Assembly (NCBI RefSeq): GCF_002157835.1
Contig: NZ_CP020809.1
Location: 1,736,001-1,800,000 of the forward strand
DNA: 64,000 nt
From: Mycobacterium dioxanotrophicus
GTDB taxonomy: Bacteria; Actinomycetota; Actinomycetes; Mycobacteriales; Mycobacteriaceae
Direction: 5' to 3'
Within the stretch, counting starts at the first letter, position 1. Each line of letters starts with the position of its first letter. This document shows positions 2,652-13,569 of this stretch, piece by piece. The notes beneath the pieces were generated by a model. That model had not been told where the DNA came from and ran no database searches. It saw nothing but the letters and a program-made list of their open reading frames with translations. A program made the position numbers and the translations under genes.

Positions 2652-3416
2652 CTACGCCCCGGCGAGTTTCATGACGTGGCCCAGCACGTCGGGGTAGCGC
2701 TTGAGATGTGCTCCGCCGTTGAGATCGATGACCTCACCGGTCAGCCACGACGCCTGCGGTGAACAGATGAACACCACGGCCGCGGCGATGTCCTGCGGAG
2801 TGCCGGCGCGGCCCAACGCGGTGTTCTCGACGTAGTCCTCGACCACGCCCGGAATCATCGCGGCGGGCTCGGTCAGCGGCGTGTGCACGAATCCCGGTGC
2901 GATGGCGTTGACCCGGATACCGCGCGGACCCAGTTCGAGGGCCGCGACCTGGGTCAGCATCGACAACCCGGCCTTGGCTGCGCAGTACGCGCTCATCCCG
3001 GCTGCGGGCTGGCGCCCGTTCAGCGACGAGATCGATACCAGCACACCGCCTTCCGGCAATCGCTTACCGGCATGCTTGGCGACGATGAATCCGCCGGTGA
3101 GGCAGACGTCGATGACCGAGCGGAACTGGTCGACGGGCATGTCGGTGATGAGCCCGACATTGCTGAACCCTGCGCAGTTGACCACGGCGTCGATCGGGCC
3201 CACTTCGGCGAACAGGCGCTGCACCGACTCCTCGTCGGTGACCTCGACGTGGCCGCTGGTGTGTGGTCGGCCGAGTTGGGCGGCCCGGGTGGCGGCGCCG
3301 TCGGCATTGCGGTCGGCCAGCACCACGCGGCAGCCGTCCTCGGCCAGTGCCTGCGCACTGGCCCACCCGATGCCGGACGCGGCCCCGATGACCAGTGCGA
3401 CCCGTTGGCCGGTCAT
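2652..3416 (-). CDS. Short-chain dehydrogenase/reductase
   Basis: This 254-residue classical SDR has the NAD(P)-binding motif VIGAASGIGWA at the N-terminus, NCAGFSN near residue 80, a catalytic serine in SISSLN, and YCAAK as the active-site Tyr-x-x-x-Lys. The open frame extends further upstream, but homology begins at MTGQRVALVIG, and this ATG (3416) overlaps the TGA of the upstream epimerase gene (ATGA at 3413-3416), which indicates translational coupling. Because the upstream gene carries a KstR-type operator, this enzyme is plausibly part of steroid metabolism; the substrate is inferred only. Confidence 0.9.
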   Translation of the reverse strand: MTGQRVALVIGAASGIGWASAQALAEDGCRVVLADRNADGAATRAAQLGRPHTSGHVEVTDEESVQRLFAEVGPIDAVVNCAGFSNVGLITDMPVDQFRSVIDVCLTGGFIVAKHAGKRLPEGGVLVSISSLNGRQPAAGMSAYCAAKAGLSMLTQVAALELGPRGIRVNAIAPGFVHTPLTEPAAMIPGVVEDYVENTALGRAGTPQDIAAAVVFICSPQASWLTGEVIDLNGGAHLKRYPDVLGHVMKLAGA

Positions 3417-4489
3417 GCGTCGGCCATATCCGGAGTCGGGTCGCCCCACTTCTTGGCTATCGCGTTCCACACGTCGGCGTACCGGCCCGGATAGTCCCTG
3501 TATGCGGACTTCGACCGCAGGAACCCCCGGATCAATGGTGCAGCCAAGCCGATCGGCAAGCGTTTCCATCCGGCGTTGGCGCTGGTGTCGGCGAGCAGTT
3601 GGCTCCAGGAGTGATGCTGGAAGCCGAGCACTTCCTGTGCGCGGGTGGTGTCCATCCAGTCGGTGGCGAACCACGCCGTGTCACTGGCCGGGTCGCCGGG
3701 CCGGCCGAGAGGCAGGCCGCCCCTGATTCTCATGGCGGCGGCCGCCTGGGAGCCGACTGCCGACTGGGTGTGCCGATGCGTCTCGGGATCGCCGCCGATC
3801 AGCAGCACTTCACGGTTGGCGTCCTCGGTCGTGGTGGCCTTGGCGAACGCGTCCGCGACGTCACGCACGTCGACGGTCTGCAGACGTCCGTCGGCGGGCA
3901 GCACACTTTCGAACGAGATCAGGTCGACGTCGATGTCGAGACTGAACTCGGAGCTCATCACCCCGCCCAGCCGCAGGATCAGCCAGTCCAGCGTGGACGC
4001 CCGGACCAGGGCTTCAGCCTCGACCTTGTGGGCGCCGTAGATGTCGGACGGGTTGGTCGGGGTGTCCGCGGTCAGCACATCGGTGATCCGATGCGGATTG
4101 CGGGCACCGTAGACGGCAACGCTGGAGGCCTGCACGAACCGTGGTCGTTGGGCCTGCGCCTCGGCCGCTCGCAACAATGCCGCGGTGGCCTCGACGTTGA
4201 CCTTGCGGGCCAGGCCGCGGCGCATATAGCAGAACGGCGGGATGATGGCCGCGAGGTGAATGATGGCGGCAGGGGAGACCTCGGCGACGAGCGCGTCGAC
4301 AGCCGAGGTGTCGGTCAGGTCGGCCCATCGGACCCGCACGCCGGACGGTAGCTGGGCGGCGGCCTTCCGGTTGGCCGCCATGTCGAGATCGGTCGCCACG
4401 ACCTCGCGTCCCGAGGCGGCCAGTGTTTGCACGACCTTGGATCCGACCAGTCCGAACGCGCCGGTCACCAGAACGGTTTCTCCCGACAT
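3413..4489 (-). CDS. NAD-dependent epimerase/dehydratase (steroid-dehydrogenase-like extended SDR)
   Basis: This 358-residue extended SDR has the Rossmann motif VTGAFGLVGSKV at the N-terminus and the catalytic YGAHK about halfway, as in 3beta-HSD-like and NAD-sugar epimerase families. The start at ATG 4489 is chosen because AGGAGG lies just upstream; a longer frame exists but would bury this site. The gene is first in a two-gene operon with the SDR at 2652. A 14-bp match to the KstR operator consensus lies 12 bases before the start, so regulation by the cholesterol-catabolism repressor is likely. Confidence 0.87.
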   Translation of the reverse strand: MSGETVLVTGAFGLVGSKVVQTLAASGREVVATDLDMAANRKAAAQLPSGVRVRWADLTDTSAVDALVAEVSPAAIIHLAAIIPPFCYMRRGLARKVNVEATAALLRAAEAQAQRPRFVQASSVAVYGARNPHRITDVLTADTPTNPSDIYGAHKVEAEALVRASTLDWLILRLGGVMSSEFSLDIDVDLISFESVLPADGRLQTVDVRDVADAFAKATTTEDANREVLLIGGDPETHRHTQSAVGSQAAAAMRIRGGLPLGRPGDPASDTAWFATDWMDTTRAQEVLGFQHHSWSQLLADTSANAGWKRLPIGLAAPLIRGFLRSKSAYRDYPGRYADVWNAIAKKWGDPTPDMADA

Positions 4490-4501
4490 GGACCTCCTCG
4501 C

Positions 4502-4515
4502 TAGAACGTGTTGCA
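4502..4515. promoter_or_regulatory. KstR-type operator
   Basis: TAGAACGTGTTGCA matches the published KstR consensus TnnAACnnGTTnnA at all six defined core bases and both outer T/A positions. It sits 12 bases upstream of the epimerase start codon. KstR is the TetR-family repressor of mycobacterial cholesterol catabolism genes. Confidence 0.65.
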
Positions 4516-4886
4516 ACAGTAGCGAACCGCGCTGTGGTGCGCGTCACCATCACCGACGCGGATTCTGCAGGCCGCCGGGCCATCATTCGCTTGCCGCCCC
4601 TCAGCAACCTGTCAACGTGGACTGCGCTGGGCAGGGGATCAGTACGGCGAACGTAGACGACGTTGCCGTGGATGCATGAGATCTGGATCACTATCGGCGC
4701 CGGAATGTGACGGCCCGCGCCGCGCCGCCGATTCTGTGACGATTTGCCCGACGACCATTCATATTTCGATTTGTCAGTTTGCCTGATGTGTCTGCATTGT
4801 GGCTGTGGAGAAGAAAAGAAAACGAGCAGATCGCAGGTGATTGTGATGTACTCGGTTGCACTCGTCGACAATTGGGGAGGTGCGGA
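4516..4886. other. Intergenic region, no gene recognised
   Basis: This 371-base gap separates the divergent epimerase and the small hypothetical gene. It is AT-richer than its neighbours around 4740-4870. I see no convincing ORF, RNA gene or repeat; it must hold the promoters of both flanking genes. Confidence 0.6.
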
Positions 4887-5162
4887 ATGTCAGAAGATGT
4901 CGTAGCGGGGGTTAACGACAGCGGATCGGAACAGGTTGCCGGTCAGATAGCTGTGGGCACACCGGTCACGGTGTATCCCGGAACCGACGATGCCCTACAT
5001 GGGGTCGTTGTCGAGGACTTCGCGGATCTGGCAGGCACCGCCGTCGAGATCGCCGGTGAACGGATCGTGGGCCCGGCCCGACGGTGGGCCGTCAACCTCG
5101 ACGACGGCGGCTTGGTGTTCGTCGACGACGACAGCATCGCCGCCGACCCACAACTGGCCTGA
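4887..5162 (+). CDS. Small acidic hypothetical protein
   Basis: This is a 91-residue protein beginning MSEDVVAGVND, with no signal peptide or membrane helix. It is acidic and beta-rich by eye (TPVTVYPGTDDALHG, RWAVNLDDGGLVFVDDD), reminiscent of a small SH3-like or barrel domain, but I do not recognise a family. The start is fixed by GGGGAGGTGC before ATG 4887; a longer frame from 4779 lacks such a site. It ends three bases before the convergent P450 gene. Confidence 0.7.
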   Translation: MSEDVVAGVNDSGSEQVAGQIAVGTPVTVYPGTDDALHGVVVEDFADLAGTAVEIAGERIVGPARRWAVNLDDGGLVFVDDDSIAADPQLA

Positions 5163-5165
5163 GCC

Positions 5166-6359
5166 TCACCGCACGATCAGCGGCAGTCGGCTCAGCCGGC
5201 GCACCAGCAGGCTGGGGAGCCATTCGGCGTCCCCGGTCGGCTCGATGACGCCCCCGTTCGCCAGCACCTGCGATATCACGATCCGCGCCTCAAGCCGCGC
5301 CAGCGCGGCGCCCACACAAAAGTGCGCACCCCTCCCGAACGCCAGGTGGCCCTTGGCGTTGGCACGATCCATGCGGAACTCGTGCGGATTCTCGAACGCC
5401 GCCGGATCCCTGTTGGCCGCACCCCACAGCAGCAGGAGATGAGATCCGGCCGGCATGGGCGTCCCCGCCAGCGTCGTATCTGCCAGTACGTGCCGGAAGT
5501 GGCCCCGAAACGGTGACTCGTACCGCAGCACCTCCTCCAGGAACACCGGCGTCAGAACCGCGTCGCGGCGCAGCCGGTCGGCGACGTCAGGCCGGTGCGC
5601 CAGGACCTGTACGGCGCTGCCGATCAGCGACGCCGTGGACTCCGCGCCGGCGCTGACCAACTGGATCAGCATGAACGCGGCGGTATCGGTGCCCAACCGC
5701 TCCGTCGCGCAATACGTCGCGAAATCGCCCAGCAGATCGTCTCCCGGGTTCGCCGCGGCCCGCCCGAACTGTTCGACCAGGTAACCCCCGAGCTCGACCG
5801 CCGCGATACCCGCCGCCGTCAGCTGGTCCTGATCGACCAGACCGTCCAGCAGCTGCGTGCTGGCGTACGCCCAGGTGACCAGCTGATCGGCATCGGCGGC
5901 CGGCAGCCCGAGCAGCCGCGCCACCACCAGCATGGGCAACCGGTCGGCCACGGTGGCCATCCAGTCGAAGTCTCCGGTCGGGAGCAGCTCTGCCGCGGTC
6001 GCGGCGATGAACGGCTCGAGCTCGCGTATGCGTTTGGCCACCAGCCGGGGCAACACCAGCTTGCGGTGGGTGGCGTGGATCGGATCGTCGGCGGTCGCCA
6101 GCACGTGCGTGGCACCGCCCGGACCTTCCATGGTGAACTCGGCGATCGTGCCGTCCGGTTGATGCCACATCGTGGCGGTCAGGTTCGACGAGAAGTCCTG
6201 CGGACGGCCGGTGGCCTCGACGACGGCTTCGAATGATGTCGCGGCGTAGAACCCCGATTCACCGATGCGCGCTACAGCGTCCTCGGCGCGCATGCGGTCG
6301 TAGAGGGCGTAGGGGTTCTGCAGAGCGGCCCGGTCGAAGAGTTCATGTGCCAGGAGCAT
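5166..6359 (-). CDS. Cytochrome P450
   Basis: This 397-residue bacterial P450 shows the I-helix segment SAGAESTASL (Ser where Thr is usual after the acidic residue), the K-helix ExxR in EEVLRYESPFR, and the heme-ligand loop FGRGAHFCVGAALAR. It would hydroxylate a small, probably lipophilic substrate with separate ferredoxin and reductase. Homology starts at MLLAHELFDRAAL, which supports ATG 6359; upstream ATGs at 6416 and 6464 would add an unrelated leader. A TetR gene is divergently placed and probably controls it. Confidence 0.9.
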   Translation of the reverse strand: MLLAHELFDRAALQNPYALYDRMRAEDAVARIGESGFYAATSFEAVVEATGRPQDFSSNLTATMWHQPDGTIAEFTMEGPGGATHVLATADDPIHATHRKLVLPRLVAKRIRELEPFIAATAAELLPTGDFDWMATVADRLPMLVVARLLGLPAADADQLVTWAYASTQLLDGLVDQDQLTAAGIAAVELGGYLVEQFGRAAANPGDDLLGDFATYCATERLGTDTAAFMLIQLVSAGAESTASLIGSAVQVLAHRPDVADRLRRDAVLTPVFLEEVLRYESPFRGHFRHVLADTTLAGTPMPAGSHLLLLWGAANRDPAAFENPHEFRMDRANAKGHLAFGRGAHFCVGAALARLEARIVISQVLANGGVIEPTGDAEWLPSLLVRRLSRLPLIVR

Positions 6360-6478
6360 TGCCCCAGGTTGACCGCCTGTTTCGGAGCCGTCAACGGATC
6401 GGCACGAAGTTGACATGCCGCTGCGGCGATGCGCGGTGACTGCCGTCTCAGCAGGTGCGGGCATGCTGCGTCGATGCT

Positions 6479-6511
6479 GAGATCAATCTCTGTTTGTGTC
6501 TCAAACTGAGA
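6479..6511. promoter_or_regulatory. Two palindromes between P450 and tetR (candidate TetR operators)
   Basis: GAGAT-CA-ATCTC (6479-6490) and TCTCA-AAC-TGAGA (6499-6511) are two perfect short inverted repeats sharing the GAGA/TCTC half-site, 20 bases apart centre to centre. The second ends 13 bases before the tetR start codon, a typical position for autorepression. Confidence 0.5.
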
Positions 6512-6524
6512 TAGCGTTGCTGCC

Positions 6525-7076
6525 ATGTCTCGACGTGGCGAGGACTGGTTGGTCGGTGGTGACCGGCGTGCGCACGCCGCCGAGCGCATCTATGCCGCAG
6601 CCACGGAGCTGGTGGCCCGCGACGGTCTCGACTCCCTCGACATCGACGCCATCGCCGCGCATGTGCACTGCTCACGGGCGACGGTGTACCGGCACGCCGG
6701 TGGTAAGTCCGAGATCCGCGACGCCGTGCTGTCCCGGTTGGCCGCCAGGATCGTCGAAGAGGTCCGGGGTCAGGTGAACGGGCTCGCCGGGCCGGACCGG
6801 GTCGTGACGGCGGTGGTCGTGGCGCTGCGGCTCATCCGGTCGGATCCCATGGCCGACCTGCTCCTGACCTCGCTGCGCGCCGGCAATGGGGCTGTGTTGA
6901 CCGAATCACGCGTCCCCACGGCGTTCGCCACCGAACTGAGCGGCCTCGCTGAGAACGATCCCGCTGCGGCGGCCTGGATCGTGCGCCTGGCGTTGTCACT
7001 ACTGGTCTGGCCGGGCGCCGACGCGGGCGCCGAGCACGAGATGCTGCGCCGGTTCGTCGTGCCCGCGTTCGCCTAA
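6525..7076 (+). CDS. TetR/AcrR family transcriptional regulator
   Basis: This 183-residue regulator has a TetR helix-turn-helix at residues 18-63 (AATELVARDG, then IAAHVHCSRATVYRHAGGK) followed by an all-helical ligand domain of unrecognised specificity. It lies divergent to the P450 gene, with inverted repeats between them, so it most likely represses the P450 and itself. Its 3' end overlaps the convergent formylglycine-generating enzyme gene by four bases. Confidence 0.88.
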   Translation: MSRRGEDWLVGGDRRAHAAERIYAAATELVARDGLDSLDIDAIAAHVHCSRATVYRHAGGKSEIRDAVLSRLAARIVEEVRGQVNGLAGPDRVVTAVVVALRLIRSDPMADLLLTSLRAGNGAVLTESRVPTAFATELSGLAENDPAAAAWIVRLALSLLVWPGADAGAEHEMLRRFVVPAFA

Positions 7077-7960
7077 AGGCGCTTGACGCAGCGAAAACCG
7101 ATGTGGCTCATACCGGTATCGACCATCTGCGGCCGCCGTGCTGCGGGCCGGTACCGCATGCAGTAGCTGTCGGCGCACAGGAACGATCCGCCCTTGATCA
7201 CCTTGCGGCCGATTTGGAACTGCGGCTGATTCGGATCGTAACTGTCTGCTGCACAGCATGATTGAGTCGACCGGTCGGCGCCGTACCAGTCGCTGGTCCA
7301 CTCCCAGACATTGCCGGCCATGTCGAACAGCTCGTAACCGTTGGGTGGGAAGCTCCCCACCGGTTTGGTGGTGCCGTATCCGGTTTCGGGCAGGTACGGG
7401 AATTCGCCGTGCCAGTAGTTGGCCAGCTGCTGTCCGGGCTGCTCCGGCTCGTCACCCCAGGTGTAGGCCGCGCCGGCCAGCCCGCCGCGGGCCGCGGTCT
7501 CCCATTCGGCCTCGGTGGGCAGGGCCAGTCCGGCCCAGCCGGCGTAGGCCTCGGCGTCCTCGTAGGCGACGTGCACCACAGGGTGGGTCTCCCGTCCCCG
7601 CAGTGACGACCGCGGCCCGCGCGGGTGGTTCCAGCACGCGCCCGGCGTCCACTGCCACCACAGGTTGAGGTGCCGGTCCACCGGGCCCGGGGTCCGATGG
7701 AACACCATCGATCCCGGCACCAGATTCTCCGGCGGCGCATCGGGGAAGTCGGCAGGGTTCAGTGCGCGTTCGGCGACCGTCACATAGCCCGTCGCTGAAA
7801 CAAACTGGGCGAATTGATCATTCGTCACCTGGTGCGACTGGATCCAGAAGCCGCCGGTCTCGACCGGCCGCACCGGGCCTTCCTCGGCATAGTGCCGGTC
7901 GGAGCCGAGCAGGGTGGTCTGCGCCGGTATCCAGACCAGATCGGTGTCGGGCTCAGTCAA
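7073..7960 (-). CDS. Formylglycine-generating enzyme (sulfatase-modifying factor)
   Basis: This 295-residue enzyme converts the active-site cysteine of type I sulfatases to C-alpha-formylglycine using O2 and copper. Seen in sequence: the FGE-sulfatase fold from VWIPAQTTLLGSD, PTEAEWETAARGG, MAGNVWEWTSDWYG, and the C-terminal GGSFLCADSYCMRYR, whose two cysteines (C-x4-C) are the metal-binding catalytic pair. The start is TTG 7960, overlapping the stop of the HAD gene; the longer frame has no homology. It is the last gene of a four-gene operon that also encodes its two presumed substrates, sulfatases with the CTAGR recognition motif. Confidence 0.92.
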   Translation of the reverse strand: MTEPDTDLVWIPAQTTLLGSDRHYAEEGPVRPVETGGFWIQSHQVTNDQFAQFVSATGYVTVAERALNPADFPDAPPENLVPGSMVFHRTPGPVDRHLNLWWQWTPGACWNHPRGPRSSLRGRETHPVVHVAYEDAEAYAGWAGLALPTEAEWETAARGGLAGAAYTWGDEPEQPGQQLANYWHGEFPYLPETGYGTTKPVGSFPPNGYELFDMAGNVWEWTSDWYGADRSTQSCCAADSYDPNQPQFQIGRKVIKGGSFLCADSYCMRYRPAARRPQMVDTGMSHIGFRCVKRL

Positions 7961-8858
7961 AGATCCGCGCCCAGTCGTCGCGCATGCTCGCCACCGGCCA
8001 GCCGCGGTCAGCGGCCAGCGCCAGCGCTCTCTCCGCACCTGCGGTGTATTCGAATTCGCGCTCGGCGTCGTCGTGGCGCACCAGCATGCTCAACGACGGT
8101 CCGGCACCTGCACTGGTGTACTCGAGCATTTCGATGTCGCCGTTGGAGTTGCCTGCCGCGAAGATCGGCCGCCTGCCGACCCGGCCCCAGATGCGTACCG
8201 GCTTGACCGGCCCGTCGTCCAGGAACTCCGGTGTCGCCGTGGTTTTGAGGTGCCCGTCGACGAAGTCGAGTCCCACCGAGCTGCCGATGACGCGTTCCGG
8301 TGGTATCCCGTACATCGCTGTGGTGACCGGACGCATGAAGTCCCGGCCGCCGCCCGACGCGATGTAGGTGGTGAAGCCGTTGGCCTCGAGGTAGCGCAGC
8401 AACTCGACCATCGGACCGTAGCCACATGAGGTGTACGGCCGCTTCAGTGTCGGATGCTGCGCGTCGGCGAAGAACGCCTTGACGCACTCGGCGTGGTCCT
8501 CGACCGGCAGGCCGGCATAGGCCGAAAGGATACCTCCGGCAAGGACTTTGAGTGCCGAGTCGTCACCGTTGTAATGCTTGGTGACGGCGTCGCCGAACCA
8601 GCCGAGGTCACCGGCTGCGGCCGCGGCGTAGGGCTGCTCGCTGGCGAGTGCTGGGTCGGCCGCGGCTTGTTCGGCCAGCCTGCGCACCAGAAAATCCAGC
8701 TGGATGTAGGCCGGCTTCTCGCACCACAGCGTGCCGTCGTTGTCGAACACCGCGACCCGGTCCTCAGGCGCGACTTCGGTGGTGGCCCGGCCGGTGAAGT
8801 CGACGATCGCCTCCTTCACCGGCCCGTCTTTCCACGACTCCAGTAGTGCCACGCTCAC
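7953..8858 (-). CDS. HAD superfamily hydrolase (phosphoserine-phosphatase-like)
   Basis: This 301-residue protein has HAD motif I in VAVFDNDGTLW, motif II in IASGGGRDF, and motif IV in GNSNGDIEML, so it should be a phosphohydrolase with an aspartyl-phosphate intermediate. The start is GTG 8858, overlapping the TGA of the upstream sulfatase (GTGA, 8855-8858); its own stop overlaps the FGE start. It has no signal peptide. A phosphatase between a sulfatase and its maturase suggests action on the same substrate or on the desulfated product, but that is inference. Confidence 0.85.
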   Translation of the reverse strand: MSVALLESWKDGPVKEAIVDFTGRATTEVAPEDRVAVFDNDGTLWCEKPAYIQLDFLVRRLAEQAAADPALASEQPYAAAAAGDLGWFGDAVTKHYNGDDSALKVLAGGILSAYAGLPVEDHAECVKAFFADAQHPTLKRPYTSCGYGPMVELLRYLEANGFTTYIASGGGRDFMRPVTTAMYGIPPERVIGSSVGLDFVDGHLKTTATPEFLDDGPVKPVRIWGRVGRRPIFAAGNSNGDIEMLEYTSAGAGPSLSMLVRHDDAEREFEYTAGAERALALAADRGWPVASMRDDWARIFD

Positions 8859-10408
8859 CCGCCCCGGGTGGCCAAGAACTTCTCGAGTTCCTCCACGGCG
8901 TTGTTGATGGTGAACGAGGCCGGCTTTTGTCGTGGTGGGAACTCTTTGAACGTCTCCAGGAACTGGTTGACGATAGCGCTGCCGTAGAACATGAGGTACA
9001 GCCGATCGATCAGCCAGTCCCAGTAGGTGTTCGATGTGACGTCGGCGTGTTCGAACGGGTCGGTGCGCAGATTGAACAGCTTGGGTGCCCGCAGCTTGGT
9101 GAACGGTTCGAACCACACTTCGAGCGTGCCTTGGCAGCGTTGCTCCATGAACACGATCTTCCAGTTGTCTGCGCGGATTCCCAGGACATCGCCGTCGTCG
9201 GAGAAGTAGATCATCCCGCGTCGGGGTGACTTGTCGACCTCGCCGGTCAGGTAGGGCAACAGGTTGTAACCGTCGATGTGCACCTTGTACTCGGTCTCGC
9301 CGTCGGCCCCCGCTTTGTGGCCCGCCTTGAGTTTCTCGACGATGTCCGGGTCACCGGCGGCAGCGAGGAAGGTCGGCAGCCAATCATGGTGCTGCACAAT
9401 CTCGTTGGATACCGTTCCGGGCGCGATCTTGCCGGTCCACCGGATCATCTCGGGGATCCGGAAGGCGCCCTCCCAGTTCGTGTTCTTCTCGCTACGGAAC
9501 GGGGTCGTCGCGCCGTCGGGCCAGCTGTTGGCGTGCGGACCGTTGTCGGTCGAGTAGATGACGATGGTGTCCTCGGCGAGTCCGAGTTCGTCGACGAGGT
9601 CGAGCAGCGTGCCGACGTTGCGGTCGTGGTCGATCATCGTGTCGTGATAGGGCGACTGCCAGCGTCCGGCCTGTCCTTTGCTCTCAGGCTTGGTGTGGGT
9701 CCGGAAATGCATGTGGGTCATGTTCATCCACACGAAGAACGGCGTGCCGGACTCGTGCTGCCGCCTGATGAAATCCGCACAGGCTCCGGTGGTCTCGTCG
9801 TCGATGGTCTCCATCCGCTTCTTCGTCAGCGGTCCGGTGTCCTCGATGCGTTGTTTGCCAACCGGGCCATACCGCGGGTCGACCTCGCCGGAATCTTCCT
9901 CGGTGGCCCAGGAATGGATGACACCGCGAGGCAGGAGAGCTGCCCGGAGTAACGGCGCTTCCTCCGCGGTGGGATAGTCGTCGTGCTCGGGCTCCTCCTC
10001 GGCATTGAGGTGGTAAAGGTTGCCGAAGAATTCGTCGAACCCGTGCGCGGTGGGCAGGTACTTGTTGAGGTCGCCGAGGTGATTCTTGCCGAATTGCCCT
10101 GTGGCGTAACCCAAGGGTTTCAGTAGTTCGGCGATGGTGGGGTCTTCCTTGTGAAGCCCCACGTCGACACCGGGCATGCCCACCTTGCTCATCCCGGTGC
10201 GGTAGACGCTCTGGCCGGTGATGAACGACGCCCGGCCAGCAGTGCAGCTCTGCTCACCATAGGAGTCGGTGAACAGCATGCCCTCAGTGGCAATACGGTC
10301 GATGTTGGGAGTCGAATAACCCATCATGCCGCGGCTGTAACAGCTCAGATTCCAGATCCCGATGTCGTCACCCCAGATGACCAGGATGTTGGGTTTTCCG
10401 TTGGGCAT
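8855..10408 (-). CDS. Type I sulfatase (arylsulfatase family), copy A
   Basis: This 517-residue cytosolic sulfatase (no signal peptide) would hydrolyse a sulfate ester. Visible active-site elements are the metal-binding Asp pair in VIWGDDIG, the formylglycine signature CTAGR with Cys55, GKNHLGD (the Lys and His of the usual GKWHLG), and STDNGPH near residue 290. The signature has Ala in place of the usual Pro (C-x-P-x-R), a variant accepted by some FGEs. It is closely related to the adjacent copy B, 12 bases upstream, and is translationally coupled to the HAD gene. Confidence 0.92.
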   Translation of the reverse strand: MPNGKPNILVIWGDDIGIWNLSCYSRGMMGYSTPNIDRIATEGMLFTDSYGEQSCTAGRASFITGQSVYRTGMSKVGMPGVDVGLHKEDPTIAELLKPLGYATGQFGKNHLGDLNKYLPTAHGFDEFFGNLYHLNAEEEPEHDDYPTAEEAPLLRAALLPRGVIHSWATEEDSGEVDPRYGPVGKQRIEDTGPLTKKRMETIDDETTGACADFIRRQHESGTPFFVWMNMTHMHFRTHTKPESKGQAGRWQSPYHDTMIDHDRNVGTLLDLVDELGLAEDTIVIYSTDNGPHANSWPDGATTPFRSEKNTNWEGAFRIPEMIRWTGKIAPGTVSNEIVQHHDWLPTFLAAAGDPDIVEKLKAGHKAGADGETEYKVHIDGYNLLPYLTGEVDKSPRRGMIYFSDDGDVLGIRADNWKIVFMEQRCQGTLEVWFEPFTKLRAPKLFNLRTDPFEHADVTSNTYWDWLIDRLYLMFYGSAIVNQFLETFKEFPPRQKPASFTINNAVEELEKFLATRGG

Positions 10409-10420
10409 CCGTGTTCCTTT

Positions 10421-11971
10421 CTAATCCTTGGCCAGAAATTCGTGGAGCTTCTCGACCACCTGGTCGACGCTGAAGCTCGCCGGTGGGTGCCGGGGCGGGA
10501 ACTCCTTGAACGTCTCGAGGAACTTCGTGGCCATCGCGGTTGCGTAGAACACGAAGTAATCGTGTCGCAAGAACCACTCGTAATACGTGTTCGAGGTGAT
10601 GTCCGCGTACTCGTACGGGTCGGTACGCAGGTTGAACAGCTTCGGTACGCGCAGCGGAGTGAACGGTTCGGCCCAGATCCGCAGTGTCCCGGGGCAGCGT
10701 TGTTCCTGGAACACGATTTTCCAGTTCTCAAAGCGCATCGCGACCAGGTCGGCGTCGTCGGAGAAGTAGAAGAAGCCGCGCCGAGGGCTGGAGTCCACCT
10801 CGCCGGTCAGGTACGGCAGCAGGTTGTACCCGTCGATGTGCACCTTGTACTCGGTCTGGCCGTCGGCGCCGGCCGTGTGCCCGCCTTTGAGCTTCTCGAT
10901 GATTTCGGGCTCGCCTGCGGCGGCCAGCAGCGTCGGCAACCAGTCGTGGTGCTGGACGATCTCGTTGGACACCGTGCCCGCCTTGATCTTTCCGGGCCAG
11001 CGGATCATCTCCGGTACGCGGAAGGCGCCCTCCCAGTTGGTGTCCTTCTCGCTGCGGAACGGCGTGGTGCCGCCGTCGGGCCAGCTGTTGCGGTGCGGGC
11101 CGTTGTCGGTCGAGTAGATGACGATGGTGTCCTCGGCGATGCCGAGTTCGTCGAGCACGTCGAGCACCGTGCCGACATTGCGGTCGTGATCGATCATCGT
11201 GTCGTGGTAGGGCGACTGCCAAAGCCCTGCCTGTCCACGGCTTTCCGGCTTGGTGTGGGTGTACAGGTGCATGTGGGTGAAGTTGCACCACACGAAGAAC
11301 GGGTTGCCTGCGTCGTGCTGGCGCTTGATGTAGTCGATCGTCGCATCGGCGATGTCCTCGTCGATGGTCTCCATGCGCTTGGCGGTCAGCGGGCCCGTGT
11401 CCTCGATGGTCTGCTTACCGACCGGACCGAATTTCGGGTCGTCGGGTTCTTCCGACACCTCCGTGGTGGCCTTGCACTTGAGCACGCCGCGCGGCTTGGC
11501 CAGGTTGTAGAGCCGCGGGTACCGGTCCTCGTGCGGGTAGTCGAAGTTCTCCGGCTCCTCTTCGGCGTTGAGGTGATACAGATTGCCGAAGAACTCGTCG
11601 AACCCGTGCACGGTCGGGAGGTACTTGTTGAGGTCGCCGAAGTGGTTTTTGCCGAACTGTCCGGTGGCGTAGCCCAGTGGCTTGAGCAACTCGGCGATCG
11701 TGGGGTCCTCAGCGGCCCAACCGATGTCGACGCCGGGGACGCCGACTTTGCTCATCCCGGTGCGGTACACGCTCTGCCCGCTGATGAATGCCGCCCGCCC
11801 AGCGGTGCAGCTTTGCTCGCCGTAAGAGTCGGTGAAGCGCATGCCCTCGTTGGCGATGCGGTCGATGTTCGGGGTTCGGTAGCCCATCAGCCCGTCGCTG
11901 TAGCAACTCAGGTTGCTGATGCCGATGTCGTCGCCCCAGATCACCAGGATGTTCGGTTTGCCGTTAGGCAT
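10421..11971 (-). CDS. Type I sulfatase (arylsulfatase family), copy B
   Basis: This 516-residue paralogue of copy A begins with the same MPNGKPNILVIWGDDIG and conserves Cys55 in CTAGR, GKNHFGD and STDNGPH. Differences concentrate around residues 160-200 (DRYPRLYNLAKPRG against the corresponding part of copy A). ATG 11971 is preceded by GAGGGGG; the longer frame upstream is not homologous. It is the first gene of the operon sulfatase B, sulfatase A, HAD, FGE. Lack of a signal peptide places the activity in the cytosol, suggesting use of imported sulfate esters or internal sulfated metabolites. Confidence 0.92.
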   Translation of the reverse strand: MPNGKPNILVIWGDDIGISNLSCYSDGLMGYRTPNIDRIANEGMRFTDSYGEQSCTAGRAAFISGQSVYRTGMSKVGVPGVDIGWAAEDPTIAELLKPLGYATGQFGKNHFGDLNKYLPTVHGFDEFFGNLYHLNAEEEPENFDYPHEDRYPRLYNLAKPRGVLKCKATTEVSEEPDDPKFGPVGKQTIEDTGPLTAKRMETIDEDIADATIDYIKRQHDAGNPFFVWCNFTHMHLYTHTKPESRGQAGLWQSPYHDTMIDHDRNVGTVLDVLDELGIAEDTIVIYSTDNGPHRNSWPDGGTTPFRSEKDTNWEGAFRVPEMIRWPGKIKAGTVSNEIVQHHDWLPTLLAAAGEPEIIEKLKGGHTAGADGQTEYKVHIDGYNLLPYLTGEVDSSPRRGFFYFSDDADLVAMRFENWKIVFQEQRCPGTLRIWAEPFTPLRVPKLFNLRTDPYEYADITSNTYYEWFLRHDYFVFYATAMATKFLETFKEFPPRHPPASFSVDQVVEKLHEFLAKD

Positions 11972-12000
11972 GAAAGCCCCCTCGTAGCGGAAAAACCTGT

Positions 12001-12027
12001 GTCCGTGGGACTTTATGCGGTACGGAC
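12001..12027. promoter_or_regulatory. Inverted repeat with DosR-like half-site
   Basis: GTCCGT (12001-12006) and ACGGAC (12022-12027) form a perfect six-base inverted repeat. Inside it, GGGACTTTA (12007-12015) matches the left half of the DosR box, but the right half is absent. It lies between the divergent sulfatase B and DUF1876 genes. DosR control is only a suggestion, prompted by the fact that the DUF1876 protein Rv1738 is in the DosR regulon. Confidence 0.3.
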
Positions 12028-12133
12028 GACCAGCGCTGCGGGTTGGGGAGTGCGGGAAGAGAAATTTACGCCAATGTCCACTCTGGCGTTGCGGACGGTG
12101 ACGGCGCACGCTGGAATGCGGAGGTTGATCGAC

Positions 12134-12409
12134 ATGTACGACAAAGATCTGTCCAACAAGTGGTTCGTCGAAATCGAGTTCTCCGAAGACGACATTCACA
12201 CCCACGCATCAGCGCACGCACAGCTGCACGACGGCGTCATCACGACCACCGGGGATGCCTACCGCAATCCCAAGGACCCGAGCGCACCGACGGTCGGCGA
12301 GGACATCGCGGCCGCCCGTGCGTTGATCGCGCTCGGTACCGAGCTGTTGCACCTGGCGTCGGCTCGCATCGAGCAGGGCACCCACCATCCGGTGCACCTG
12401 TACCGCTGA
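12134..12409 (+). CDS. DUF1876 family protein (Rv1738/Rv2632c-like)
   Basis: This 91-residue protein beginning MYDKDLSNKWFVEIEF carries the DUF1876 features HASAHAQLHDG and a C-terminal helix with ALGTELLHLASARIEQGTHH. The family includes Rv1738, whose structure resembles ribosome hibernation factors, so a role in dormancy or ribosome silencing is possible but unproven here. The start is chosen by the GGAGG nine bases before ATG 12134. It converges with the 3beta-HSD gene with a two-base gap. Confidence 0.85.
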   Translation: MYDKDLSNKWFVEIEFSEDDIHTHASAHAQLHDGVITTTGDAYRNPKDPSAPTVGEDIAAARALIALGTELLHLASARIEQGTHHPVHLYR

Positions 12410-12411
12410 GT

Positions 12412-13554
12412 TCAGGCGAGCGCCGGCTGCGTGGCCGGCCCGGCCTCCATCTGGCGGAACAACTCGACGTAGTACGGCATGCTCGCGGTCATCGCCTGCT
12501 GCGTGGTGAACAGCGGCTCGTATCCCAGATCGCGCTTGGCTTTGGCGATCGAGAAGTAGTTGTTGAGGTAAAGCCGTTCCACGGCAAGGGGTTCGATCAA
12601 CGGCTCGGGGATGCCGAACTTGAAGTGCAACCGCTGCCACAGCGTCATGGCCTTGTGCACGAGCCGGCCCGACACCCGGATGTTGGGAAGCCGGTGTCCG
12701 CATGCCGCGATCACCGGGCGGGCGAACTCGAACATGTTGACGGGGTCGCCGTCGTTGATGAAATAGGCCTGACCGGGAGCCGTGCCACCCGGCACGAGAT
12801 GCTCGGCGGCCAGGATGAAACCGTGAATCAGGTTGTGTACGTAGCTGTTGTCCAGCTTGATGTTCTTGTTGCCGACCAGCACCTTGACGTGTCCGGCCAG
12901 CACGTTCTCGAAGACTTTGCGGAACATGGTCTGATCGCCCCGCCCCCAGATGCCGCTGGGGCGGATCGAACAGGTGAGCATGTCGTGTTCCCCGTTCTGG
13001 CTGAGCACGAACTTCTCGGCGACGACCTTGGTCTCGGTGTACAGGTCGTTGAACCGTTGGGTGTACGGCAGGGTCTCGTCGCCGTTGACGATGTTCTGGC
13101 CACCCATCACCACGCTGTTGGACGCCGTGTAGACGAAGCGTTTGACGCCGGCCGCCTGCGCCGCGTGCACGAGGTTGCGGGTGCCCTCGACGTTGACGGC
13201 GAAGCTGCGGTTGCGGTATTCGGCGGTGACAGAGGCGCCGCCCATGAGGTCGATGACGGCCGCGGTGTGGAACACCGTGTCGATGTCCTTCACGGCTGCG
13301 GCCACCGTTTCCGGATCGCAGATGTCGCCCTGCAGCACCTCAAGGCCGGCGTGCTCGCCCAACGTGGACGGCGCCCGATCGAAGGACCGCACGGTGTAAC
13401 CGCGGTCGAGCAGTTCGGTCACCAGGTTGGCGCCGACGAAGCCGGAGCCGCCGGTCACCAGCACGCGGCCGAGTTCAGCTCGCACGTGAGGAGCAGACGA
13501 ACCACCGCGCACGTGAGGAGCAGAGGAACCGCCGGTCAGAGATGCGTCAGCCAT
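12412..13554 (-). CDS. 3beta-hydroxysteroid dehydrogenase (Rv1106c orthologue)
   Basis: This 380-residue NAD-dependent enzyme oxidises 3beta-hydroxysterols such as cholesterol to 3-keto-4-ene products, the entry step of sterol degradation. Seen: VTGGSGFVGANLV for NAD binding and YTETK as the catalytic Tyr/Lys. The N-terminus before the Rossmann fold carries two tandem GGSSAPHVR-type nonapeptides encoded by a 27-bp DNA repeat, which I do not recall in Rv1106c. A KstR-type palindrome lies 16 bases upstream of ATG 13554, giving it its own promoter independent of xseAB. Confidence 0.9.
   Translation of the reverse strand: MADASLTGGSSAPHVRGGSSAPHVRAELGRVLVTGGSGFVGANLVTELLDRGYTVRSFDRAPSTLGEHAGLEVLQGDICDPETVAAAVKDIDTVFHTAAVIDLMGGASVTAEYRNRSFAVNVEGTRNLVHAAQAAGVKRFVYTASNSVVMGGQNIVNGDETLPYTQRFNDLYTETKVVAEKFVLSQNGEHDMLTCSIRPSGIWGRGDQTMFRKVFENVLAGHVKVLVGNKNIKLDNSYVHNLIHGFILAAEHLVPGGTAPGQAYFINDGDPVNMFEFARPVIAACGHRLPNIRVSGRLVHKAMTLWQRLHFKFGIPEPLIEPLAVERLYLNNYFSIAKAKRDLGYEPLFTTQQAMTASMPYYVELFRQMEAGPATQPALA
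13481..13534. repeat. 27-bp tandem direct repeat in the 3beta-HSD gene
   Basis: Two consecutive 27-base units, 13481-13507 and 13508-13534, both begin CGCACGTGAGGAGCAGA and differ at a few bases. They are in frame, adding nine residues each to the enzyme's N-terminal extension. Confidence 0.85.
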
Positions 13555-13569
13555 GGCGCAGAGCATAAC

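Follow-up and report, generated by a model that had tools for sequence, protein, structure and literature searches.

The stretch analysed here (the window) comprises 64,000 nucleotides of the 8.08-Mb genome of Mycobacterium dioxanotrophicus (RefSeq assembly GCF_002157835.1, contig NZ_CP020809.1, positions 1,736,001 to 1,800,000 of the forward strand), and its positions 7073-11971 hold four minus-strand genes encoding two sulfatases (B and A), a phosphatase-like protein of the haloacid dehalogenase (HAD) superfamily, and a formylglycine-generating enzyme (FGE). The comparison of this operon with its relatives shows that the HAD protein belongs to the sulfatase-FGE set, and the order of the four genes goes beyond chance, since most relatives in the comparison share it. 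The pairing of sulfatases with FGE is textbook knowledge, and the operon, which is real, is largely ordinary as a set of this kind; its recurrent HAD partner is less familiar. Judging from sequence, we consider it somewhat probable that the operon specifies a cassette for the hydrolysis of sulfate esters in the cytosol, in which the HAD protein would act as a phosphomonoesterase on the same pool of molecules. Among the matches listed from the open-licence literature (subscription papers lie mostly outside that scope), no title or abstract described a sulfatase-HAD-FGE operon. The accessible portions of PMC9736018 and PMC6355987 contain nothing bearing on it, and those of a paper on acesulfame in Shinella (PMC11500405) deal with another sulfatase and mention neither haloacid nor phosphatase.

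The linkage survey covered 198 genomes from the genus, an even sample of a larger group (below, L and G numbers denote loci and genomes, respectively). A HAD profile at E ≤ 1e-25 gave 90 places in 83 genomes, and sulfatase A as a query at E ≤ 1e-120 gave 124 places in 86 genomes. For FGE, we counted as operon-type the 79 best places (E ≤ 4.6e-133), which stand well apart from the others listed (≥ 1.5e-96); the core FGE was not included. A sulfatase gene on the same strand lies 6-45 bases from 73 of the 90 HAD matches, and an operon-type FGE gene lies within 109 bases of 77 of them; both neighbours accompany 70 matches and two sulfatases accompany 19. The preliminary description of this DNA had made its proposal depend on the conservation of the HAD gene with the sulfatases, and this is what the survey found. 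Counted by genome, with full-length HAD genes only and two genomes with HAD fragments dropped, HAD and operon-type FGE occur together in 78 genomes, HAD without FGE in 3, FGE without HAD in 1, and neither in 116; the corresponding numbers for HAD and sulfatase are 79, 2, 7 (sulfatase only), and 110. The Fisher values of 2.5e-50 for HAD/FGE and 3.9e-44 for HAD/sulfatase ignore the relatedness of the genomes and thus overstate the case. The named loci, the best 80 of 285 by HAD similarity and therefore biased to close relatives, give a similar picture, with a sulfatase directly before HAD in 69 of the 76 loci with enough upstream sequence, FGE within 300 bases of HAD in 75 of the 77 that extend far enough downstream, all three genes together in 66 of 73, and two sulfatases in 22 of 72. 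The nearest of them, from Mycobacterium aquaticum, Mycobacterium sp. 852013-50091, and Mycolicibacterium brisbanense, encode HAD proteins of 95% identity each, so the host is probably an environmental mycobacterium of the rapidly growing kind. Incomplete sets also occur: L128 and L130 have the sulfatase and HAD and no adjacent FGE, the FGE of L129 is split in two, sulfatase and FGE are adjacent with HAD absent in L172 (G255), and L169-L171 carry a sulfatase with neither HAD nor FGE. In L126 the gene before HAD-FGE encodes another kind of sulfatase, with 72% identity to a protein from Rhizobium.

The preliminary description had called for a neighbourhood search beyond the strain, and the set was found not only outside the strain but outside mycobacteria too, with the sulfatase-HAD pairing also seen in further Actinomycetota and in Pseudomonadota as well as on a single plasmid of Bacteroidota. 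HAD was detected in 13 of 396 Actinomycetota genomes, nine of them outside the genus (this survey replaced a smaller first one with 3 HAD matches in 149 genomes of the phylum). A sulfatase lies beside or near HAD in five of these nine (G031, G370, G420, G450, and G461, the HAD gene of G420 being in two pieces); G028 has short sulfatase-like pieces only, in G487 and G530 the locus is truncated at a contig end, and no sulfatase was found near HAD in G428. HAD also matches 219 plasmid records. Fourteen plasmid loci, chosen for variety from 60 of these records, were examined, and ten of them (two being Sinorhizobium meliloti pSymA) have a sulfatase within 10 kb of HAD. When 11 of the plasmid records so examined were searched in whole for PF00884, a match was placed within 10 kb of HAD in nine, whereas the background of 31 matches in 10.95 Mb predicts some 0.06 per 20 kb. 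By their lengths and identities, the sulfatases paired with HAD are of three kinds, so HAD is not specific to any single kind. The HAD protein group is large, with at least 7999 matches at E ≤ 0.001 among 8000 scored candidates, and the role of the protein, once settled, would aid the annotation of this whole group. Sulfatases are usually annotated singly and their substrates are guessed; a HAD neighbour in several phyla gives a handle on joint function.

The coordinates bear out the arrangement described previously, with a 12-base gap and GTGA and TTG overlaps between minus-strand genes. Sulfatase B (10421-11971, ATG start, 516 aa) is the first gene and is followed after 12 bases by sulfatase A (8855-10408, ATG start, 517 aa). 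The stop codon of sulfatase A overlaps the start of the HAD gene (7953-8858, GTG start, 301 aa) in the sequence GTGA, a possible alternative GTG start lying two codons further in, and the end of the HAD gene overlaps by 8 bases the TTG start of the FGE gene (7073-7960, 295 aa). Both sulfatases score above the curated cut-off of 25 for PF00884 (165.3 bits for B and 159.1 bits for A). Their predicted formylglycine precursor, C55 (codons 11807-11809 in B and 10244-10246 in A), lies in CTAGR, a variant of the usual CxPxR sulfatase motif. In an alignment of 104 sulfatase rows, from which two copies with stops had been removed beforehand, D14, D15, C55, A57, G58, R59, K108, H110, H234, D288, N289, and K308 are identical in every row, and H232 and H292 are kept in 100 rows; the metal and catalytic positions among them are those that we presume from the residues of arylsulfatase A. 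The best matches in the PDB are the arylsulfatase 7aj0 and human arylsulfatase A, and the operon enzymes resemble these type I (S1) formylglycine sulfatases in the PF00884 domain, C55 in CTAGR, the DD pair at 14-15, and the alignment of K108, H110, D288, N289, and K308, but differ from them in the tandem A/B arrangement and in the missing leader of the mycobacterial copies.

The FGE protein (PF03781, 250.3 bits, cut-off 23.3) has the catalytic pair C262-x4-C267 in GGSFLCADSYC (codons within 7160-7177), invariant in 13 of 13 FGE rows; the earlier description of FLCADSYC and of Cys55 in CTAGR was accurate for the enzyme and for both sulfatases. Its nearest PDB entry is the FGE 6s07 (230.6 bits, residues 8-292 of 295 aligned), and in PF03781 and the C-x4-C pair it is like the other aerobic enzymes of the SUMF1 family (2q17, human FGE); it differs from them in being one of two copies in its genome, in sharing an operon with sulfatases and HAD, and in its TTG start overlapping HAD. 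The HAD protein (PF12710, 50.6 bits; DNDGT codons 8730-8744) keeps D39, D41, G42, K219, G240, and D241 in 20 of 20 rows from four phyla and S168 in at least 90%, and thus has the DxDGT, Ser/Thr, Lys, and GD acid motifs of PF12710 phosphatases. NCBIfam gave no family for it, and the HAD hydrolase 4ovy (213 bits) is its relative in the PDB. It is 41% identical to the HAD copy on S. meliloti pSymA, which like the operon copy is sulfatase-adjacent (the adjoining sulfatase is 33% identical). Gram-negative copies carry export signals, whereas the mycobacterial operon copy has none and its phosphatase activity is predicted only. Sulfatases, HAD, and FGE each look catalytically sound, and no leader or export signal was seen in any of the four operon proteins, as had been noted before.

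On the proposed mechanism, FGE would oxidise C55 of both sulfatases to formylglycine, as their families and intact active-site residues suggest. The activated sulfatases would then split organic sulfate esters in the cytosol, yielding sulfate for assimilation and a desulfated alcohol or phenol. The HAD phosphomonoesterase may share the compartment of the sulfatases, attacking phosphate esters from the same pool of molecules, and would stand outside the FGE reaction.

The main reason for preferring such a substrate-level role is that HAD shares the export split of the sulfatase, unlike FGE. By a crude signal rule applied to 26 hand-picked loci, HAD is predicted to be exported in 11 of 11 loci from Pseudomonadota and Bacteroidota versus 0 of 15 actinobacterial operon loci, and the window HAD lacks the signal that marks exported acid phosphatases of the Gram-negative type. 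An export signal was assigned to the sulfatase by the rule in L105, L108, L162, and L166 and by eye in L097, L106, and L168; none was seen in L100 or in any of the 15 actinobacterial loci. The Gram-negative FGE is signal-free in L105, L162, and L168 (three of five loci). The Gram-negative sulfatase-HAD pair would thus act mostly outside the cytosol, whereas the leaderless pair of actinobacterial operons would stay inside. Probably, then, HAD shares its site of action with the sulfatase and attacks esters there instead of taking part in maturation by FGE. A broader proposal, which we put forward tentatively and with more doubt than belief, is that HAD is a third widely conserved partner of bacterial formylglycine sulfatases, required either for exploiting their substrates fully (e.g., those with both sulfate and phosphate esters) or for keeping sulfatases active, and that sulfatase and HAD changed compartment together between Gram-negative bacteria (exported) and Actinomycetota (cytosolic).

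Several observations weigh against a shared substrate pool, the main ones being the retention of HAD-FGE without a sulfatase and two exported FGEs. An adjacent sulfatase is missing from seven named loci. In four of them (L033, L049, L082, and L088) HAD and FGE are still paired between the upstream 3-beta-hydroxysteroid dehydrogenase (HSD) gene and the downstream genes, and in L052 a 45-residue sulfatase remnant precedes the pair, which points to a tie between HAD and FGE; of the other two, L079 shows only HAD, its sequence reaching about 1.1 kb downstream, and that of L047 stops just past HAD. The FGEs of L106 and L108 (two of the five Gram-negative loci tested) carry an export signal. Furthermore, both neighbours are absent at 10 of the 90 HAD places in the genus, namely at six full-length copies (L118-L123), one copy interrupted by a stop (L134), and three fragments. 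L118 (5789-6793) holds another mycobacterial copy of HAD (42% identity), which bears a lipobox/export signal and lies apart from operon-type sulfatases; it limits the cytosolic placing to operon copies, as the HAD family of Actinomycetota is not leaderless throughout. L119-L122 are similar stand-alone copies (41-43% identity), and L123 has two other kinds of sulfatase within 6 kb. No sulfatase was found in the 8-kb flanks of the plasmid HAD genes of Cupriavidus (where an FGE-type gene adjoins HAD), Natrinema, Vibrio, and Selenomonas, i.e., in 4 of the 14 loci. Conversely, HAD lies within 8 kb in three (L162, L166, and L168) of eight annotated plasmid loci of the sulfatase family, taken from the 40 best of 538 records; five of the eight loci have an FGE or anaerobic maturase by annotation. 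On the supporting side, PMC12542648 and PMC2912261 list SMa1682 of S. meliloti as a nonspecific acid phosphatase and SMa1683 as an arylsulfatase, respectively; these names fit the HAD-sulfatase neighbours on pSymA, the match to the tags being inferred because the pSymA record is unannotated.

The tie between HAD and FGE invites the view that HAD assists in maturing or maintaining sulfatases, working with FGE or on the sulfatase protein and serving any sulfatase in the cell. The co-occurrence of HAD and operon-type FGE in 78 genomes of the genus agrees with it, as does the persistence of HAD-FGE in the five loci that lost the adjacent sulfatase; G182, G189, G212, and G303 (matched to L033, L049, L082, and L088) have a 67% identical sulfatase elsewhere, and L033 also has a 64% identical one about 7.5 kb upstream. 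The pairing of HAD with three kinds of sulfatase fits as well, and in Pantoea At-9b an annotated anaerobic sulfatase maturase follows HAD in the place of FGE. We nevertheless regard a maturation role as unlikely: the Gram-negative HAD is exported while FGE is signal-free in three of five loci, no HAD match was found in the 18 kb examined around the second FGE locus (L133), and sulfatase and FGE occur without HAD in L172 and, within 8 kb, in two plasmid loci. An improbable account, to a like degree, is that HAD is a broad, nonspecific phosphatase co-expressed with the sulfatases as a kit for scavenging sulfur and phosphorus, with no molecule shared between them. The database name of one HAD relative (putative nonspecific acid phosphatase) and the same name given to SMa1682 in a table speak for it, together with the separate position of the L118 lipoprotein and the export signals of Gram-negative copies, which are often found with scavenging enzymes. 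The leaderless mycobacterial operon proteins, however, leave no room for scavenging outside the cell, and the linkage with sulfatase and FGE is tighter than a generic phosphatase needs.

Two further readings concern the substrate, and we find both very hard to credit. The turnover of an internal sulfated lipid or another endogenous sulfate ester would suit leaderless proteins, but the ten genes examined at 2652-13566 give no sign of sulfolipid synthesis, and related sets are present in other phyla. The breakdown of steroid sulfates together with neighbouring dehydrogenases is suggested by the surroundings of the operon. Upstream lie a divergent, plus-strand Rv2632c-like gene (PF08962, about 12074-12409) and the 3Beta_HSD gene (PF01073, 12412-13566), beyond which is a gene that we take to be xseA. 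Downstream, a convergent TetR gene (6525-7076), whose end overlaps that of FGE by 4 bases, is followed by P450, epimerase, and short-chain dehydrogenase/reductase (SDR) genes, so that HSD on one side and P450 and SDR on the other could form a steroid context; a steryl-sulfatase is also among the PDB matches. Yet the best of these matches is the arylsulfatase 7aj0, and in the 58 loci fully flanked (9 kb on both sides) HSD and xseA are each present in 51, which makes HSD look like part of a fixed chromosomal site. Moreover, in loci such as L053, L056, L064, and L068 the sulfatase-HAD-FGE set is present although no HSD of more than 50% identity accompanies it. A steroid link was rejected as the main explanation, as HSD follows the xseA-HSD site and the operon is also found elsewhere. 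TetR and P450 are each found in 17 of the 58 loci, and the Rv2632c-like gene in 27, including 18 of the 19 with two sulfatases.

The evidence supports the claim that the sulfatases and their FGE make up a self-contained set, although the operon FGE may not be strictly needed, because the same genome encodes another FGE, with 53% identity, next to a further sulfatase at C1:5856499. The preliminary description is thereby borne out in part; its proposals of sulfate-ester uptake and of a HAD enzyme attacking a phosphorylated or desulfated intermediate are conjectural. Sulfatases A and B are 76% identical. In a quick tree with some long outgroup branches, the B rows fall into a single 49-member clade (support 100) and the A rows into a 42-member one (support 91) with three rows unplaced; these separate clades make the duplication look old, and a recent tandem duplication was rejected. 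Lineages with a single sulfatase keep either the A or the B copy. In L018 (8227-8361, M. brisbanense), sulfatase B is cut to a 45-residue N-terminal stub, and sulfatase A, HAD, and FGE are kept. Two promoter-like sites, both within the sulfatase genes (0.7 expected), and one terminator-like site at 12068-12089 (4.0 expected) give nothing to build on.

Some minor features of related loci may be added. A sulfate permease gene (PF00916) adjoins the sulfatase-HAD-FGE set in L126 (genome G224; 4411-12416 of that locus), which speaks for the proposed sulfate-ester cassette, and a terminase-like gene (PF03237) lies on the side opposite to the permease. In L103 (4212-8939, Natrinema) the exported HAD comes after two proteins with Tat-like starts, and the nearest PF00884 match in that record is about 52 kb off. 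L061, on a contig labelled as a Bifidobacterium breve metagenome-assembled genome, carries a mycobacterial-type sulfatase-HAD-FGE set of 74-81% identity and is probably mis-binned. In distant Gram-negatives (L099, L100, L104, L105, L108, L166, and L167), genes for a MoxR ATPase and for DUF58 and/or VWA proteins are clustered with members of the sulfatase family, HAD, or FGE.

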